Part shown: positions 4,528-35,540 of the stretch, piece by piece
Position numbering within the stretch: the first letter of the stretch is position 1
Layout of the letters: every line of letters begins with the position of its first letter
NCBI RefSeq assembly: GCF_003946915.1
Contig: NZ_RPOC01000008.1
Span: forward strand, 1 to 64,000
DNA: 64,000 nt
Source: Flavobacterium ustbae
GTDB lineage: Bacteria; Bacteroidota; Bacteroidia; Flavobacteriales; Flavobacteriaceae
Reading direction: 5' to 3'
Program-made: the position numbers and the translations under genes
Notes under the pieces: model-generated
Told to the model about the DNA's origin: nothing
The model's database searches: none
Seen by the model: only the letters and a program-made list of their open reading frames with translations

Positions 4528-5415
4528 ATGAAAAAAATAATTTTTTATATGGCATTGATGCTTGTTTCTACGCAAATTCAAGCGCAAAAAGACTTTCAGG
4601 GAATGGCTGTTTACGAGTCTAAAACACAAGCTCCCAAGTTTGAAGGAATGCGCGGTAATAGAGACATTACGCCAGAAATGCAGAAAAATATGGAAGAGCG
4701 AATGAAAAAATTGCTCGAAAAAACATTTATTTTAAATTTTGACAAATCGGCATCTATCTATAAAGAAGAAGAAAAATTAGAAGCTCCAGGCCAACAACAG
4801 GGCGGTTTTCGAGTTATGTTTGGTTCGCTAACAGGCGGTGGCGGAACTTTTTATAAAGATGTAAAAGCAAAATCGTATACGGTAGATAAGGAATTTATGG
4901 GTAAAGAATTTCTTGTGGTGGATTCTCTGCCAAAATTAAACTGGAAATTGGAACAGGAAACCAAACAAATTGGTGGTTATAACTGTTTTAAAGCTACAGC
5001 GGTAAAACAAGCAAGCAAAACCGATTTTAGAAATTTCAGACCTAAAAAGGAAGACGATAAGAAAGACGAAGCCAAAAAAACTTCTGGAGATACCAAAACA
5101 AATTTTGTAGATAACTTCGAAATACCAAAAGAAATAGTGGTAACGGCTTGGTACACACCAGAAATTCCTGTAAATCAAGGGCCGGAGAATTATTGGGGAC
5201 TTCCTGGTTTAATTCTAGAGATCAACGACGGAACTACGACTATTTTGTGTTCTAAAATTGTTTTGAATGCCAAAGATAAAGTAGAAATAAAACCATCTAA
5301 AAAAGGAAAAGTAGTTTCGCAGAAAGAATATGACGAAACGGTAATTAAAAAAATGGAAGAATTTAGAGAAATGAACCGTAATAGACAAGGCGGACCACCA
5401 CAGATGGGAAGATAA
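4528..5415 (+). CDS. GLPGLI family secreted protein
   Basis: The 295-residue protein has a signal peptide (MKKIIFYMALMLVSTQIQAQ) and the family-defining NYWGLPGLIL motif near residue 230. It has a Lys/Asp-rich charged insert (about 170-195) and a Gly/Pro-rich end. GLPGLI proteins are Bacteroidetes-specific periplasmic or outer-membrane-associated proteins of unknown activity, usually encoded beside a TonB-type outer-membrane protein, as here (57-base gap). A functional pair is inferred, perhaps peptide or metal handling. Confidence 0.85.
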   Translation: MKKIIFYMALMLVSTQIQAQKDFQGMAVYESKTQAPKFEGMRGNRDITPEMQKNMEERMKKLLEKTFILNFDKSASIYKEEEKLEAPGQQQGGFRVMFGSLTGGGGTFYKDVKAKSYTVDKEFMGKEFLVVDSLPKLNWKLEQETKQIGGYNCFKATAVKQASKTDFRNFRPKKEDDKKDEAKKTSGDTKTNFVDNFEIPKEIVVTAWYTPEIPVNQGPENYWGLPGLILEINDGTTTILCSKIVLNAKDKVEIKPSKKGKVVSQKEYDETVIKKMEEFREMNRNRQGGPPQMGR

Positions 5416-12355: not shown

Positions 12356-12389
12356 TGTTTGGCTGTTTGAAAAAAAGTTCTCAACTTTG
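12356..12389 (+). promoter_or_regulatory. Promoter of the metY attenuator region
   Basis: TTG (12356-12358) and CAACTTTG (12382-12389, one mismatch to TAnnTTTG) are 23 bases apart. The start site would be near 12396, about 14 bases before the first leader ATG. Confidence 0.5.
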
Positions 12390-12409: not shown

Positions 12410-12478
12410 ATGAATTTAGGTATTAAAAATATGTGCTGTATGATGTCGGAATTATCCGCAGAGCGTGCTATTGTTTAG
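12410..12478 (+). CDS. Met/Cys leader peptide 1 (22 aa) of metY attenuator
   Basis: This short ORF starts ATG at 12410 and stops at TAG 12476. It begins MNLGIKNMCCMM, so codons 8-12 are Met-Cys-Cys-Met-Met. A strong terminator follows 25 bases after the stop. The segment GCAGAG (12458-12463) near its end is identical to the terminator's 3' arm and can pair with the 5' arm CTCTGC (12507-12512). A ribosome stalled at the Met/Cys codons leaves that segment free, allowing an antiterminator. A ribosome at the stop would cover it. The role as an attenuator leader is inferred from this layout. Its N-terminus resembles leader 3 (MNL...M.C..S). Confidence 0.7.
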   Translation: MNLGIKNMCCMMSELSAERAIV

Positions 12479-12503
12479 TATTTAAATCTATAAATAACAA
12501 TGA

Positions 12504-12532
12504 AACCTCTGCCCACCAGCAGAGGTTTTTTT
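12504..12532 (+). terminator. Attenuator terminator 1
   Basis: A 9-bp stem AACCTCTGC (12504-12512) / GCAGAGGTT (12519-12527) with a 6-base loop is followed by a T-run. It lies between the leader 1 stop and leader 2, so it acts before metY. Confidence 0.88.
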
Positions 12533-12545
12533 ATGAAAAAAAATT

Positions 12546-12626
12546 AAACCATATAAGTCATATAAGTTTTAATTAATCAGGCGCAAGCAAAAAAAAACTT
12601 AATTTCCTTATATAACTTATATGGTG
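12546..12626. repeat. MITE-like inverted-repeat element, copy A (81 bp)
   Basis: It starts AACCATATAAGTCATATAAG and ends with the inverse, TATATAACTTATATGGT. Terminal arms of about 25 bases enclose a short AT-rich core. Copies B (14453-14618) and C (23526-23628) share the arms but have different cores. No coding capacity. It sits between the two tandem attenuators. Confidence 0.7.
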
Positions 12627-12641
12627 AAACAAAAAAGCAAT

Positions 12642-12722
12642 ATGAAAAATTCAGCAGCAAATAAAATGAAGATGTGTTGTAAGATGCCAATGTGTATCCC
12701 GCCTTGCTGTTGCCGAAAGTGA
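12642..12722 (+). CDS. Met/Cys-rich leader peptide 2 (26 aa) of metY attenuator
   Basis: ATG at 12642 to TGA at 12720-12722. The peptide has 6 Cys and 4 internal Met in 26 residues, including NKMKMCCKMPMC and a CCC near the end. The last codons contain CCGAAAG (12713-12719), identical to the 3' arm of the next terminator (12774-12780). It can pair with CTTTTGG (12759-12765) of the 5' arm. A ribosome at the stop covers this segment, and one stalled on the upstream Met/Cys codons (12666-12695) does not. I infer a leader peptide for attenuation. A free metal-binding peptide is a less likely alternative. Confidence 0.78.
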   Translation: MKNSAANKMKMCCKMPMCIPPCCCRK

Positions 12723-12753
12723 AAGATCGAATCTTTGTTATAGTTTCAACTAT

Positions 12754-12790
12754 AAGCCCTTTTGGTAAGCCATCCGAAAGGGCTTTTTTT
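12754..12790 (+). terminator. Attenuator terminator 2
   Basis: Stem AAGCCCTTTTGG (12754-12765) / CCGAAAGGGCTT (12774-12785), with one G-T wobble, is followed by T7. It lies 26 bases before the small ORF at 12817. Confidence 0.88.
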
Positions 12791-12816: not shown

Positions 12817-13014
12817 ATGAAAACACTAGATATCAATACAATCGCATACGAATACTTATTAAGAACAAATTCTGAGGAACAGAATAATTTTTTAGAAGAT
12901 CAGACAATAGAATTTAATCAGGATCAATATTTAGAAAGTCAGAATTCTTTACTCCTTCAATTATACAATCTTGAAGAAGAAGATTTATATGTTCAGGCGC
13001 AATTCAACAATTAA
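12817..13014 (+). CDS. Small acidic protein of unknown function upstream of metY (65 aa)
   Basis: The 65-residue protein has no recognised domain. It is strongly acidic and rich in Asn, Gln, Glu and Leu, probably helical (LLLQLYNLEEEDLYVQAQ). Its only Met is the initiator and it has no Cys. It lies between the second attenuator and metY (47-base gap), so it would be made when Met/Cys are short. The low sulfur content fits that. Whether it is a regulator, a metY partner or a third leader-type reading frame cannot be told from one sequence. Confidence 0.65.
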   Translation: MKTLDINTIAYEYLLRTNSEEQNNFLEDQTIEFNQDQYLESQNSLLLQLYNLEEEDLYVQAQFNN

Positions 13015-13061: not shown

Positions 13062-14366
13062 ATGAGCACACAAAAATTTGCAACAAACGCACTTCACTCA
13101 GGACACGATGTTACTAAAAATGCAGGAACAAGAGCAGTGCCTATTTATCAAACATCATCTTATGTATTTAATAATGCCGATCATGCGGCCAATTTATTTG
13201 GTCTTGCCGAAGCCGGATTTATTTATACACGTTTAAATAACCCAACAAACGATATTTTAGAACAAAGGCTGGCAGCGCTTGAAGGCGGAATCGGGGCAGT
13301 AGTTACCGCTTCGGGAGCATCGGCAATTTCGACTACATTATTAACGCTACTAAAAGCGGGAGATCATATTGTAGCATCAAACAGTTTGTATGGCGGTACT
13401 TATAATCTATTAAAGGTTACTTTGCCAAGATTAGGAATTACAACAACATTTGTAGATCCTTCAAAACCAGAAAATTTTAGCAAAGCAGCAAAAGAAAATA
13501 CTAGAGCATTCTTTGTAGAATCTCTAGGCAATCCAAAATTAGACGTATTAGATTTAAAGGCAATTTCGGCAGAAGCCAAAGCATTTAAAGTGCCATTTAT
13601 AGTAGACAATACAGTTGCGACACCTTATTTATTAAATCCAATTCCATACGGTGCCGATATTGTAATTCATTCCTTAACTAAATATATTGCCGGAAACGGA
13701 ACTTCATTAGGAGGTGTTATCATTGATGCTGGAAACTTTGACTGGTCTAATGGAAAATTCCCAGAATTTACCGAACCATCTGCAGGATACCACGGCTTAG
13801 TATATCACGAAGCTTTAGGAAATGCGGCTTTTATTGCAAAAGCCCGAATTGAAGGTCTGCGTGATTTTGGTTCTGCTTTAAGTCCGTTTAATGCTTTCCA
13901 GATTATTCAGGGATTAGAAACGCTTCCAATTCGAATTAAGAAACACAGCGAAAATGCTTTGGCTCTGGCTGAATGGCTAGAAAAACAAGATGAGGTGGTT
14001 TGGGTAAATTATCCAGGACTGAAATCAAGTAAATATCACGATTTAGCAAATCAATATCTTCCAGAAGGACAAAGCGGCATTATTACTTTCGGTTTAAAAG
14101 GAGGTTTTGACGCTGCTAAAAAAGTAGTAGACGAAACAAAATTATTTTCTCTTTTAGCTAATATCGGAGATACAAAATCACTGATTATTCACCCAGCGAG
14201 TACAACGCATCAGCAATTGACAGAGGCGGAGCAAATTGAAACAGGAGTTTCTAAAGATTTGATTCGACTTTCTGTTGGAATTGAAGATATAGAAGATTTA
14301 ATTGCAGATCTGCAAGCTGTTTTTGAAAGTGTTAAGCTTTCTCAATACAGCATCAATAAAAATTAG
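13062..14366 (+). CDS. metY: O-acetylhomoserine sulfhydrylase (aminocarboxypropyltransferase)
   Basis: The 434-residue PLP enzyme of the Cys/Met metabolism family joins O-acetylhomoserine and sulfide to give homocysteine. The PLP lysine lies in HSLTKYIAGNGTSLGG near residue 205-220. The GNGTS form and the length above 420 favour MetY over MetB or MetZ. The YxR phosphate-binding motif (FIYTRLNNPTND) is near 55-65. It sits behind two attenuators and a small ORF, and its terminator is at 14391. The acetyl donor would come from MetX encoded at 16935. Confidence 0.93.
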   Translation: MSTQKFATNALHSGHDVTKNAGTRAVPIYQTSSYVFNNADHAANLFGLAEAGFIYTRLNNPTNDILEQRLAALEGGIGAVVTASGASAISTTLLTLLKAGDHIVASNSLYGGTYNLLKVTLPRLGITTTFVDPSKPENFSKAAKENTRAFFVESLGNPKLDVLDLKAISAEAKAFKVPFIVDNTVATPYLLNPIPYGADIVIHSLTKYIAGNGTSLGGVIIDAGNFDWSNGKFPEFTEPSAGYHGLVYHEALGNAAFIAKARIEGLRDFGSALSPFNAFQIIQGLETLPIRIKKHSENALALAEWLEKQDEVVWVNYPGLKSSKYHDLANQYLPEGQSGIITFGLKGGFDAAKKVVDETKLFSLLANIGDTKSLIIHPASTTHQQLTEAEQIETGVSKDLIRLSVGIEDIEDLIADLQAVFESVKLSQYSINKN

Positions 14367-14452: not shown

Positions 14453-14618
14453 AAACCCTATAAGTCATATAAGTTCATTTTAGTAGAGACGGATAGTTTT
14501 AATTGTAAAATAAATAATCCATTTTTATCCGCGTCAAAATATTGAGCTTTTAAATTGCATTCAAAGGATTACAAATGCAATTTAGATGCTAAAATGAACT
14601 TATATCACTTATATGGTT
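14453..14618. repeat. MITE-like inverted-repeat element, copy B (166 bp)
   Basis: Arms AAACCCTATAAGTCATATAA...TTCATTTTAG and its inverse CTAAAATGAACTTATATCAC...TATATGGTT, about 30 bases each. The core contains GTAGAGACG as in copy C, plus unrelated AT-rich sequence. It fills most of the gap between the metY terminator and the homoserine dehydrogenase paralogue, ending 19 bases before that start codon. Confidence 0.75.
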
Positions 14619-15941: not shown

Positions 15942-15968
15942 TTATACCCAAAAACTACTAGAAATCAA

Positions 15969-16049
15969 ATGAACTTAAAAGTCAACAAAATGTTTTGTGC
16001 CATTTCGGTTAAGACCGAGGCTAGGGTGTCTATTGCTAAAAAATTGTAA
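15969..16049 (+). CDS. Leader peptide 3 (26 aa) of metX-region attenuator
   Basis: ATG 15969 to TAA 16047-16049. It begins MNLKVNKMFCAIS, with Met and Cys codons at positions 8 and 10. MNL, M-x-C-x-x-S and a later R and I align with leader 1, suggesting common ancestry. GAGGCT (16017-16022) inside the ORF matches the 3' arm of terminator 3 and can pair with AGCCTC (16073-16078). A small hairpin TCGGT/ACCGA (16005-16018) could hold that segment unless a stalled ribosome opens it. Fit to the attenuation model is weaker than for leaders 1 and 2, because a ribosome at the stop would not cover GAGGCT. Confidence 0.58.
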   Translation: MNLKVNKMFCAISVKTEARVSIAKKL

Positions 16050-16072
16050 GAATACAATACTAATATAGTAAG

Positions 16073-16104
16073 AGCCTCCTAAGAAATATTTAGGAGGCTT
16101 TTTA
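16073..16104 (+). terminator. Attenuator terminator 3
   Basis: Stem AGCCTCCTAA / TTTAGGAGGCT with a short loop and T5, 24 bases after the leader 3 stop. Confidence 0.85.
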
Positions 16105-16148
16105 ATTTAACAGAAATGCAAAAATTTAAATTACAATATAAATCACAG

Positions 16149-16214
16149 ATGAATAAATCCTTACAGATAAACAAGATGTTTACTGTCGCGCTTATTTGCG
16201 CATACGTCTGTTGA
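16149..16214 (+). CDS. Leader peptide 4 (21 aa) of metX-region attenuator
   Basis: ATG 16149 to TGA 16212-16214. It contains NKMFTVALIC and ends in Cys, so it has one internal Met and two Cys. The NKM motif is shared with leaders 2 and 3. CTAAAAG (16217-16223), just past the stop, can pair (one G-U) with CTTTTGG (16250-16256) of the next terminator's 5' arm. A ribosome at the stop would cover it. The start is uncertain: an in-frame ATG at 16176 would give 12 residues. Confidence 0.5.
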   Translation: MNKSLQINKMFTVALICAYVC

Positions 16215-16244
16215 TACTAAAAGTATACGTGAGTGTAAAAACTT

Positions 16245-16283
16245 AAACCCTTTTGGTATCTAAAAATCCAAAAGGGTTTTTTT
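16245..16283 (+). terminator. Attenuator terminator 4
   Basis: A perfect 12-bp stem AAACCCTTTTGG / CCAAAAGGGTTT is followed by T7. It lies upstream of the small ORF at 16361 and the SAM-I riboswitch. Confidence 0.88.
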
Positions 16284-16360: not shown

Positions 16361-16564
16361 ATGAGCACATTGAACTACTTAGCAGAAAAAATTTCTAATT
16401 TGAAAAACAGAAGAACAAAAAGAAACAATCCGCCACCGCCAACAAACGAATTGGCTCACCCAAGATTCGGAATAACAGAGGAAGATAAAAGTGCAAAGAA
16501 AAAAGCACCAAACTCTTTATTGTTTTTGATGTATTCAACAGAAAATGAAACGCTTTTTATCTAA
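16361..16564 (+). CDS. Small basic protein of unknown function (67 aa)
   Basis: The 67-residue protein has a basic N-terminal half (KNRRTKRNN), a PPPP stretch, and a short hydrophobic segment near the end (SLLFLMYS). No known domain, no Cys and only one internal Met. It occupies the same place after tandem attenuators as the 65-residue ORF at 12817, but the two proteins are not similar. It could be a small regulator or simply the ORF served by the upstream attenuators. No terminator lies between it and the SAM-I riboswitch. Confidence 0.55.
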   Translation: MSTLNYLAEKISNLKNRRTKRNNPPPPTNELAHPRFGITEEDKSAKKKAPNSLLFLMYSTENETLFI

Positions 16565-16726: not shown

Positions 16727-16755
16727 CACTCGTTAAGTTCAAACAAATATTGAAA

Positions 16756-16861
16756 TGTTATAAAGAAAGGACGAGGGATTAGACCCGATGAAGCCTTAGC
16801 AACCCTTCGGTAAAACGAAGAAGGTGCTACATTCTACCACGCCAAACGTGGACAGATAACA
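16756..16861 (+). ncRNA. SAM-I (S-box) riboswitch upstream of metX
   Basis: Core S-box sequences are present in order: GAGGGATTAGACCCGATGAA, then CCTTAGCAACCCTTCGG, AAGGTGCTACATTCTACC, and a closing P1 TGTTAT (16756-16761) / ATAACA (16856-16861). P3 is CTTCGG...CGAAG and P4 is CCACG...CGTGG. It lies 73 bases before the metX start and should lower metX-thrA expression when SAM is abundant. Confidence 0.93.
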
Positions 16862-16873
16862 ACAAGATTTTTT

Positions 16874-23525: not shown

Positions 23526-23628
23526 AAACCATATAAGTTATATAAGTTTATTTTGTAGAGACGCTCAGCAGTGCGTCTAATTATATACGGAATGTATATA
23601 AAATGAACTTATATGACTTATATGGTTT
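23526..23628. repeat. MITE-like inverted-repeat element, copy C (103 bp)
   Basis: It starts AAACCATATAAGTTATATAA and ends ATATGACTTATATGGTTT. The core holds a nested palindrome GTAGAGACGC...GTGCGTCTA. It lies between the convergent rrf2-type gene and the tauE-type gene, 7 bases from each stop codon, and may also serve as a bidirectional terminator. Confidence 0.78.
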
Positions 23629-35329: not shown

Positions 35330-35352
35330 CAGCGTTCATAATTTTATTGAAA

Positions 35353-35464
35353 GTTATCACGAAAGGCGGAGGGATAGACCCAATGAAACCTTAGCAACCC
35401 TTTACCATAAAGAAGGTGCTAAATTCTACTTTACACTGTAAACACAGTATTTAAGATAGATAAC
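35353..35464 (+). ncRNA. SAM-I (S-box) riboswitch upstream of metH
   Basis: P1 GTTATC (35353-35358) / GATAAC (35459-35464). Core GGAGGGATAGACCCAATGAA, then CCTTAGCAACCC, GAAGGTGCTAAATTCTAC, and a P4 hairpin ACACTGT..ACAGT. It lies about 305 bases before metH part 1. No clear terminator was seen just after the aptamer, so the expression platform is unresolved. Confidence 0.93.
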
Positions 35465-35540
35465 ACAAATACAATCAGTATTTCTCAAAACTTTTCCTGA
35501 CAACATTACAACAAAATTTCACCGAATAATATTTAGTGAA

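Follow-up and report, generated by a model that had tools for sequence, protein, structure and literature searches.

Attenuators of the trp, his and ilv type, such as that of mycobacterial ilvB1 (PMC13236596), carry codons for the end product of the pathway in a short leader ORF. The leaders described here are alike in this respect, and their sequences also predict an antiterminator and an intrinsic terminator that exclude each other, as well as a ribosome that would mask the antiterminator strand at the stop codon. In contrast to those systems, the flavobacterial units use Met and Cys codons, appear to consist of three segments and a mini-hairpin (P0), are arranged as two serial units and belong to a Bacteroidota host. 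The four-segment trp attenuator has a protector segment that pairs with the antiterminator strand (pairings 1:2, 2:3 and 3:4). P0 here touches the mimic, a copy of the terminator 3' arm. Leader ORFs with Cys codons have also been reported. uORFC-8-2 upstream of cysS in Rhodobacterales combines two tandem Cys codons with an intrinsic terminator, but as described in PMC8632094 it is a single unit in another phylum, codes for Cys only and targets a cysteinyl-tRNA synthetase. The Cys-run leaders upstream of cys operons in Actinobacteria, termed translation attenuation in PMC13236596, likewise have Cys codons in a leader ORF, but according to PMC1262725 they contain Cys runs only and no conserved terminator hairpin, whereas the terminators here covary. 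In other Flavobacteriaceae, the same spot upstream of metY is taken by the SAM-I riboswitch (RF00162), which senses S-adenosylmethionine directly. A 2010 survey states that leader-peptide control was known only in Proteobacteria and Actinobacteria until the survey itself added Firmicutes (PMC2965389), and short ORFs resembling leader peptides are noted in a 2020 map of Bacteroides (PMC7366714). Among the matches listed in our search of the open-access literature there was no Met-coded attenuator, none in flavobacteria and no Met/Cys attenuator in Bacteroidota, in line with the first-pass annotation of this DNA, which had known of none in Bacteroidetes. The new aspects are thus the Met coding, the tandem order and the host group, and the mechanism class itself is known.

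The window, i.e. the whole stretch of 64,000 nt analysed, contains two such units between metK and metY (Table 1). Based on the letters alone, the first-pass annotation had proposed two tandem short ORFs rich in Met and Cys codons, each followed within about 35 bases by a strong terminator and each ending in a copy of the terminator 3' arm. All these parts were located where it had placed them, the second copy (CCGAAAG, 12713-12719) being part of a longer mimic: TTGCCGAAAG can form 10 pairs, G-U counted, with CTTTTGGTAA (12759-12768), which comprises the end of the T2 5' arm and the loop. Its comparison with trp/his-type attenuation holds for the features of a leader-peptide attenuator seen in the sequence but appears not to extend to the four-segment trp scheme, as three segments are seen (mimic, 5' arm and 3' arm). 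ORF2 has an alternative in-frame ATG at 12621, from which a 33-aa peptide would be read. Both units fold more stably than expected, with a z-score of -4.18 for ORF1-T1 (0/200 shuffles equally stable) and of -2.84 for ORF2-T2 (1/200). We scanned both strands of the whole window for ORFs that span 15-40 codons, contain 4 or more internal Met/Cys codons and have a terminator 5-60 nt past the stop; such ORFs end at three places only, namely ORF1, ORF2 and 16214, where the second ORF of another tandem pair ends. No ORF of this type was present in six 64-kb windows generated with a first-order Markov model.

Table 1 Features of the metK–metY interval and of related elements in the window
Feature	Position	Strand	Remarks
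metK–metY interval			Contains ORF1, T1, ORF2, T2, then a 65-codon gene; metK on minus strand
SAM-II riboswitch	12232-12126	minus	Before metK
Candidate -7 promoter element, CAACTTTG	12382..12389	+	One mismatch to TAnnTTTG; ORF1 ATG 20 nt on
Leader ORF1, 22 codons, MNLGIKNMCCMMSELSAERAIV	12410..12478	+	Met-Cys-Cys-Met-Met at codons 8-12
Mini-hairpin P0, CGGA/TCCG	12447..12458	+	Between Met/Cys codons and mimic
Mimic GCAGAG of T1 3' arm (outer antiterminator strand)	12458..12463	+	Pairs with T1 5' arm, from covariation and permutation
Inner antiterminator strand	12469..12475	+	Partner 12496-12502; part of predicted nascent fold of -15.8 kcal/mol
Terminator T1	12503..12528	+	24 nt from ORF1 stop codon to 5' arm
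Leader ORF2, 26 codons, MKNSAANKMKMCCKMPMCIPPCCCRK	12642..12722	+	6 Cys and 4 internal Met; ATG at 12642
Mimic of ORF2, TTGCCGAAAG	12710..12719	+	Includes CCGAAAG; partner 12759-12768
Terminator T2	12754..12785	+	31 nt from ORF2 stop codon to 5' arm
Small 65-aa gene	12817..13014	+	In the T2–metY gap; read as ORF
metY, O-acetylhomoserine aminocarboxypropyltransferase	13062..14366	+	Presumed regulated gene; PF01053; TIGR01326 above cut-off
Leader ORF1', MNLKVNKMFCAISVKTEARVSIAKKL	15969..16049	+	Model match 15957-16106, E 1.5e-4 in whole genome
Terminator T1'	16071..16101	+	Second pair
Leader ORF2', MNKSLQINKMFTVALICAYVC	16149..16214	+	In-frame ATG at 16116 would make a longer form
Terminator T2'	16245..16279	+	Second pair
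SAM-I riboswitches	16755-16862; 35351-35466		Rfam

With regard to expression signals, the motif TAnnTTTG lies within 60 nt 5' of the leader ATG in 39/110 units, compared with 12/110 reversed stretches and 3.9% of random 60-mers, most frequently at a distance of 19-20 nt; most units have no match and the window has the one-off form only. An A at position -3 of the leader start is found in 77/110 units. In PMC6847099, this A is a positive initiation determinant in F. johnsoniae, and Bacteroidota mRNAs are described as lacking Shine-Dalgarno sequences. The leader peptides ORF1 and ORF2 have no match in Pfam. The stretch between T1 and ORF2 (12548-12625) is the palindrome (ACCATATAAGTCATATAAG ... 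CTTATATAACTTATATGGT) of a repeat, copies of which also lie at window positions 14457-14475, 14597-14615 and 23530-23624; its arm has 120 matches in the genome (2 mismatches, both strands) and the reversed control 1, and the repeat resembles a small mobile element or one of the REP type.

Taken together, the sequence comparisons below make it very probable that metY is controlled by two serial ribosome-mediated transcription attenuators that sense the charging of Met- and Cys-tRNA. We infer that RNA polymerase would transcribe the leader while a ribosome translates the short ORF. When Met-tRNA (and Cys-tRNA) is ample, the ribosome would reach the stop codon and cover the mimic, which would allow the terminator to fold and to halt transcription. 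At low charging, the ribosome would stall on the Met/Cys codons, leaving free the mimic just past its leading edge, which would pair with the terminator 5' arm before the 3' arm exists; no terminator would then form and transcription would continue. The second unit, richer in Cys codons, may repeat the test, and metY is therefore proposed to be expressed only after both gates have been passed. For the window, the predicted energies of the nascent antiterminator and of the terminator with the mimic covered are -15.8 and -16.3 kcal/mol, respectively. The features by which leader-peptide attenuators are recognized in sequence are present, including a conserved ORF with end-product codons, a predicted intrinsic terminator, a covarying antiterminator and a fitting geometry.

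A comparison of the region upstream of metY in other flavobacteria had been suggested by the first-pass annotation as a check on the ORFs, their Met/Cys codons, the mimic and the terminator, and the proposal withstands it. The result named there as refuting, namely terminators retained in relatives whose ORFs or Met/Cys codons are not conserved, was not obtained. Among 80 named relatives fetched with metY as query, ORF1-T1 adjoins metY in 40 and lies about 3.5 kb upstream in 23 more, where it precedes a gene for a TonB-dependent receptor situated between unit 1 and unit 2 (L033 1528-4374 and 22 others; identified by PF00593 and PF07715 in L033 and by similarity to L033 in the other loci). We guess that the substrate of this receptor may be a sulfur source or cobalamin. 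A loss of ORF1 at loci with ORF2 only was considered and rejected, as a longer upstream stretch revealed ORF1-T1 in these 23. ORF2 alone is seen in 3/80 (L073, L087 and L091), each with less than 1 kb of upstream sequence, and ORF2-T2 is present in 55/80. The leader is absent from 13/80, and L110, a locus without a riboswitch scan, has no leader either. Across 41 aligned units the start codon of ORF1 is invariant, and the leader is 22 codons long in 75/110 units. Decay also occurs: the L062 unit has lost its stop and retains one internal Met, the L076 group has lost T2, and L068/L074 have lost ORF2.

A model of unit 1 (R1), built from alignment A1, recovered the metY unit in its own genome with an E-value of 6.9e-19, followed by the second pair (Table 1); five weaker matches (L114-L118) were discarded because they have no Met/Cys leader. 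Within the genus, 230/299 Flavobacterium genomes match at E<=1e-4. In the 150 genomes scored for a metY orthologue (E below 1e-200), all of them among the 299 judging by their handles, R1 matches 78/84 genomes with the orthologue versus 29/66 without it. The remaining 6/84 include two (L249 and L250, in G058 and G076) with a single Met-rich leader of 8 internal Met and no Cys upstream of metY, which together with a terminator of unrelated sequence occupies the place of the usual pair; three (L251-L253) with no such leader upstream of metY; and one (G144) with metY at a contig edge, left unread. In the family, 149/397 genomes match at E<=0.01, many of the weak matches possibly being due to chance. 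All 29 places in other genera with E<1e-6 were read, and the next recognized gene is metY in 25, metX-like in 2, metB/Z-like in 1 and none in 1 (L140). At the level of the order, 28/246 genomes match at E<=1e-4, 4 of them from other families, and three of these four have Met/Cys leaders: L237 before a metX-like gene, L239 before a metY-like gene, and L238, where tandem leaders MIQIQKNMCCMCMC... and ...TCCCTMTMCCCNCCC... precede cysH (NCBIfam) and a CysD-like gene (the metX-, metY- and CysD-like names were assigned by eye). The fourth (L240) proved to be a false positive of R1, as did L198. In the class, 10/247 genomes match, five of them outside the order (L244-L248). In four of these five (L244-L246 and L248) no Met/Cys leader is convincing, and an R1 E-value close to 1e-5 is therefore no proof of a unit. 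In the fifth, L247, two leaders containing CCCC precede a gene that is best matched by nitrite/sulfite reductase models, at scores under the cut-offs of these models; this gene is present in 3/9 genomes of the order of L247, and tandem Cys-run leaders precede it in 3/3.

We further examined whether mimic and terminator change together, using 166 units thinned to 112 with a similarity limit of 0.93, of which 110 entered the geometry, P0 and duplex tests. In the alignment of 41 units, 97.2% of the antiterminator cells are paired and 3/6 pairs have changed on both sides. With 111 units, 93.1% of cells are paired, with both-side changes in 5/6 pairs and 31 cells; none of 500 shuffles attains this cell count, score or percentage, and 8/500 attain the number of doubly changed pairs, relatedness being ignored. 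When the partners were slid by +2 columns as a control, 28 cells were changed on both sides, yet only 46% pair. Terminator T1 in the same units has 99.0% of cells paired and 8/9 pairs with both-side changes. Mimics pair better with their own terminator arm than with permuted ones, at -13.08 versus -10.5 kcal/mol for ORF1 (0/20,000 in 110 units) and -13.95 versus -12.41 for ORF2 (0/20,000 in 77 distinct units, L056 and L062 left out), relatedness again being ignored in both tests. In two smaller ORF2 sets, 1/20,000 permutations reached the own pairing energy; one of these two sets was without L056, L062 and L067. Among units with a non-consensus T1 arm, 10/47 pair no better with their own arm. 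The window mimic itself also does no better with its own T1 arm (-11.4) than with others (-11.6), because most units share the consensus arm. Individual cases are T1 CCGCTGC with mimic GCAGCG in Christiangramia and Salegentibacter, CCCTTGC with GCAAGGG in L138 and L143, and CCTCCCA with TTGGG in units of the second-pair type. The ORF2 mimic pairs with the T2 5' arm and loop, and in distant genera the register is shifted while the letters track, as in CGGTATTGCC/GGCAATACCG (L081), AGATATTGCC/GGTAATATCT (L072) and GCTATTGCCAA/TTGGTAATAGC (L098). The partner of the inner antiterminator strand co-varies in relatives as well, e.g. ATGG/CCAT in L063, as judged by eye.

The spacing of the parts is also constrained. 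Counted from the first base of the final Met/Cys codon, the mimic starts 14-15 nt on in 82/110 units, and in 94/110 it ends 9-12 nt short of the stop codon. The footprint of a ribosome is about 28-30 nt, and this spacing thus fits a ribosome that would leave the mimic exposed during a stall and cover it at the stop codon. Of the 88 units with the mimic core GCAG, 67 have it in frame 0, 19 in frame 2 and 2 in frame 1. The core thus occurs in two main frames, whereas the length of the leader and its Met/Cys codons are largely retained, so selection acts on nucleotides at the mimic and on codons before it. A P0 stem of at least 4 pairs ending at the mimic is found in 99/110 units, compared with a mean of 22 and a maximum of 34 in 300 shufflings, and its letters co-change (CGGAA/TTCCG, CGGTT/AACCG and GTAAA/TTTAC); P0 was counted on unaligned units since MAFFT and the model put it in two registers. 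Our guess is that P0 is a polymerase pause hairpin.

In 99 of the 166 units, metY is the next gene recognized; in the others it is the TonB receptor gene (24), a small gene before a metX-like gene (19), a metX-like gene (6), cysH-cysD (4), osmC-hom (4), osmC (2) or a metC-like gene (3, one of them judged from a partial gene), with single cases of cysE-cysK, hom, metB/Z-like, nothing recognized and a false positive. With NCBIfam, cysK, cysH and cysD score above cut-offs, cysE above that of one serine acetyltransferase model but below that of TIGR01172, and metX and metC below the cut-offs of their best models. The codons follow the target. The 11 leaders that precede cysE-cysK or cysH-cysD have Cys/(Met+Cys) shares of 0.43-0.80, compared with an average of 0.30 for the 77 non-redundant met-gene leaders (p 4.8e-6 by Mann-Whitney test, relatedness ignored); the first five cys-gene leaders alone had 0.50-0.80 (p 2.4e-4). 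A Cys majority is restricted to some cys-gene leaders, and in three of the tandem cysH loci the first leader is mixed rather than Cys-led. Met is the commoner signal in met-gene leaders, 14/77 of which lack Cys, and the idea that Cys is obligatory in ORF1 was accordingly rejected; the three units before metC-like genes contain five internal Met and zero Cys. These codon shares and the mimic/terminator covariation argue for the reading of the leaders as Met/Cys attenuators that the first-pass annotation had offered. From 30 fetched cysH loci, all scanned with R1 and 13 also for ORFs, the 8 closest include 7 with Met/Cys leaders (L203 has none), 5 of them tandem with two terminators. R1 detected no unit in the other 22 fetched loci or before the cysH of the own genome (C57:25705), and leader control of cysH is therefore far from universal. 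The leaders before an osmC-like gene and hom in L188, L189, L192 and L193 have few Met/Cys codons and some Thr/Tyr/Phe codons. Homoserine is also a precursor of threonine, so these leaders may sense beyond sulfur amino acids. In a broader reading that we favour somewhat, a sulfur regulon (metY, metX-, metC- and metB/Z-like genes, hom, cysE-cysK, cysH-cysD, the sulfite-reductase-like gene and the TonB receptor) would be under leader attenuators retuned between Met and Cys to suit each target in flavobacteria and at least one further Bacteroidia order, the tandem acting as a multiplicative or two-signal gate and, at metY, standing in place of the SAM-I of relatives.

Several other explanations of the same parts were weighed. 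Cys/Met-rich peptides can bind metals, and the leader peptides might themselves act, by metal binding or in trans, the terminators merely ending small transcripts. A trans-acting leader peptide, peTrpL, is described in Sinorhizobium (PMC7298713). In the flavobacterial units, however, the residues at the mimic vary with the frame (SAE or PQR) while the nucleotides stay constant, Cys is missing from 14/77 met-gene leaders, and the mimic changes along with the terminator, a link that a peptide function would not require, making this explanation extremely unlikely. Gating of the terminators by another signal, such as a metabolite or protein bound to the leader RNA, with the ORFs incidental or a translation-coupling device, would accord with the covarying P0 and with SAM-I standing at the same place in relatives, where ligand-sensing RNA is thus usual. 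Against such a ligand, no Rfam family reaches the gathering score on the leader strand of the window, P0, antiterminator and terminator are the only conserved helices seen in the alignment, and the start codon, the length of the leader and its Met/Cys codons are conserved, with a codon choice that matches the pathway of the target; we regard it as very unlikely. T-box elements are absent from the whole window (Rfam).

Slow initiation could also serve as the sensor: since AUG is the start codon, a lack of Met would reduce initiation, and the mimic would stay free with no stall at internal codons. The three-segment design, with no conserved protector segment found besides P0, would suit this. 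The internal Met/Cys codons at their usual distance from the mimic would be useless to it, though, Cys-richer leaders are located at cys genes, and the predicted fold of the untranslated window leader buries the mimic in a long hairpin (4/6 bases paired) with T1 formed. We consequently give this explanation hardly any weight and retain stalling at internal Met/Cys codons as the probable signal. If so, the leaders would represent a conserved attenuator class sensing methionyl-tRNA, in a phylum where leader-peptide control has hardly been described, and one RNA chassis would offer a natural series of Met-only, mixed and Cys-leaning sensors, single and tandem.

The sensor upstream of metY appears to have been exchanged among relatives. 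In an Rfam scan of 27/80 named loci, SAM-I was found upstream of metY in 13/13 leaderless relatives (Aquimarina, Flagellimonas, Muricauda, Dokdonia, Psychroserpens, Ulvibacter and others), ending 112-173 nt before the gene, and in 0/14 leader-bearing loci; the metK–metY interval of the window has none. With a midpoint root, a metY tree of 54 of 81 proteins requires one change between the leader and SAM-I states. At the scanned loci, metY thus carries either a leader or a SAM-I riboswitch, and the benefit of sensing tRNA charging over sensing a metabolite, and of two serial gates, would be testable in a tractable genus. One and the same genome contains a SAM-II before metK, two SAM-I and Met/Cys leaders, which suggests that SAM sensors and presumed tRNA-charging sensors operate side by side.

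The second tandem pair in the window is followed 3' of T2' by a small gene (16361-16564), a SAM-I riboswitch and then a metX-like gene (16935). ORF1' has few Met/Cys codons, and the mimic of ORF2', GATACTAAAAG (16213-16223), can pair with 16250-16260, as judged by eye. Neither this small gene (67 aa) nor the 65-aa gene at 12817-13014 has a match in Pfam or NCBIfam. Each of the two stands directly after a tandem leader pair, and they have in common a C-terminal motif like NSLLFLMYSxENExLFI; a relative (4698-4889) stands before metY in L061.
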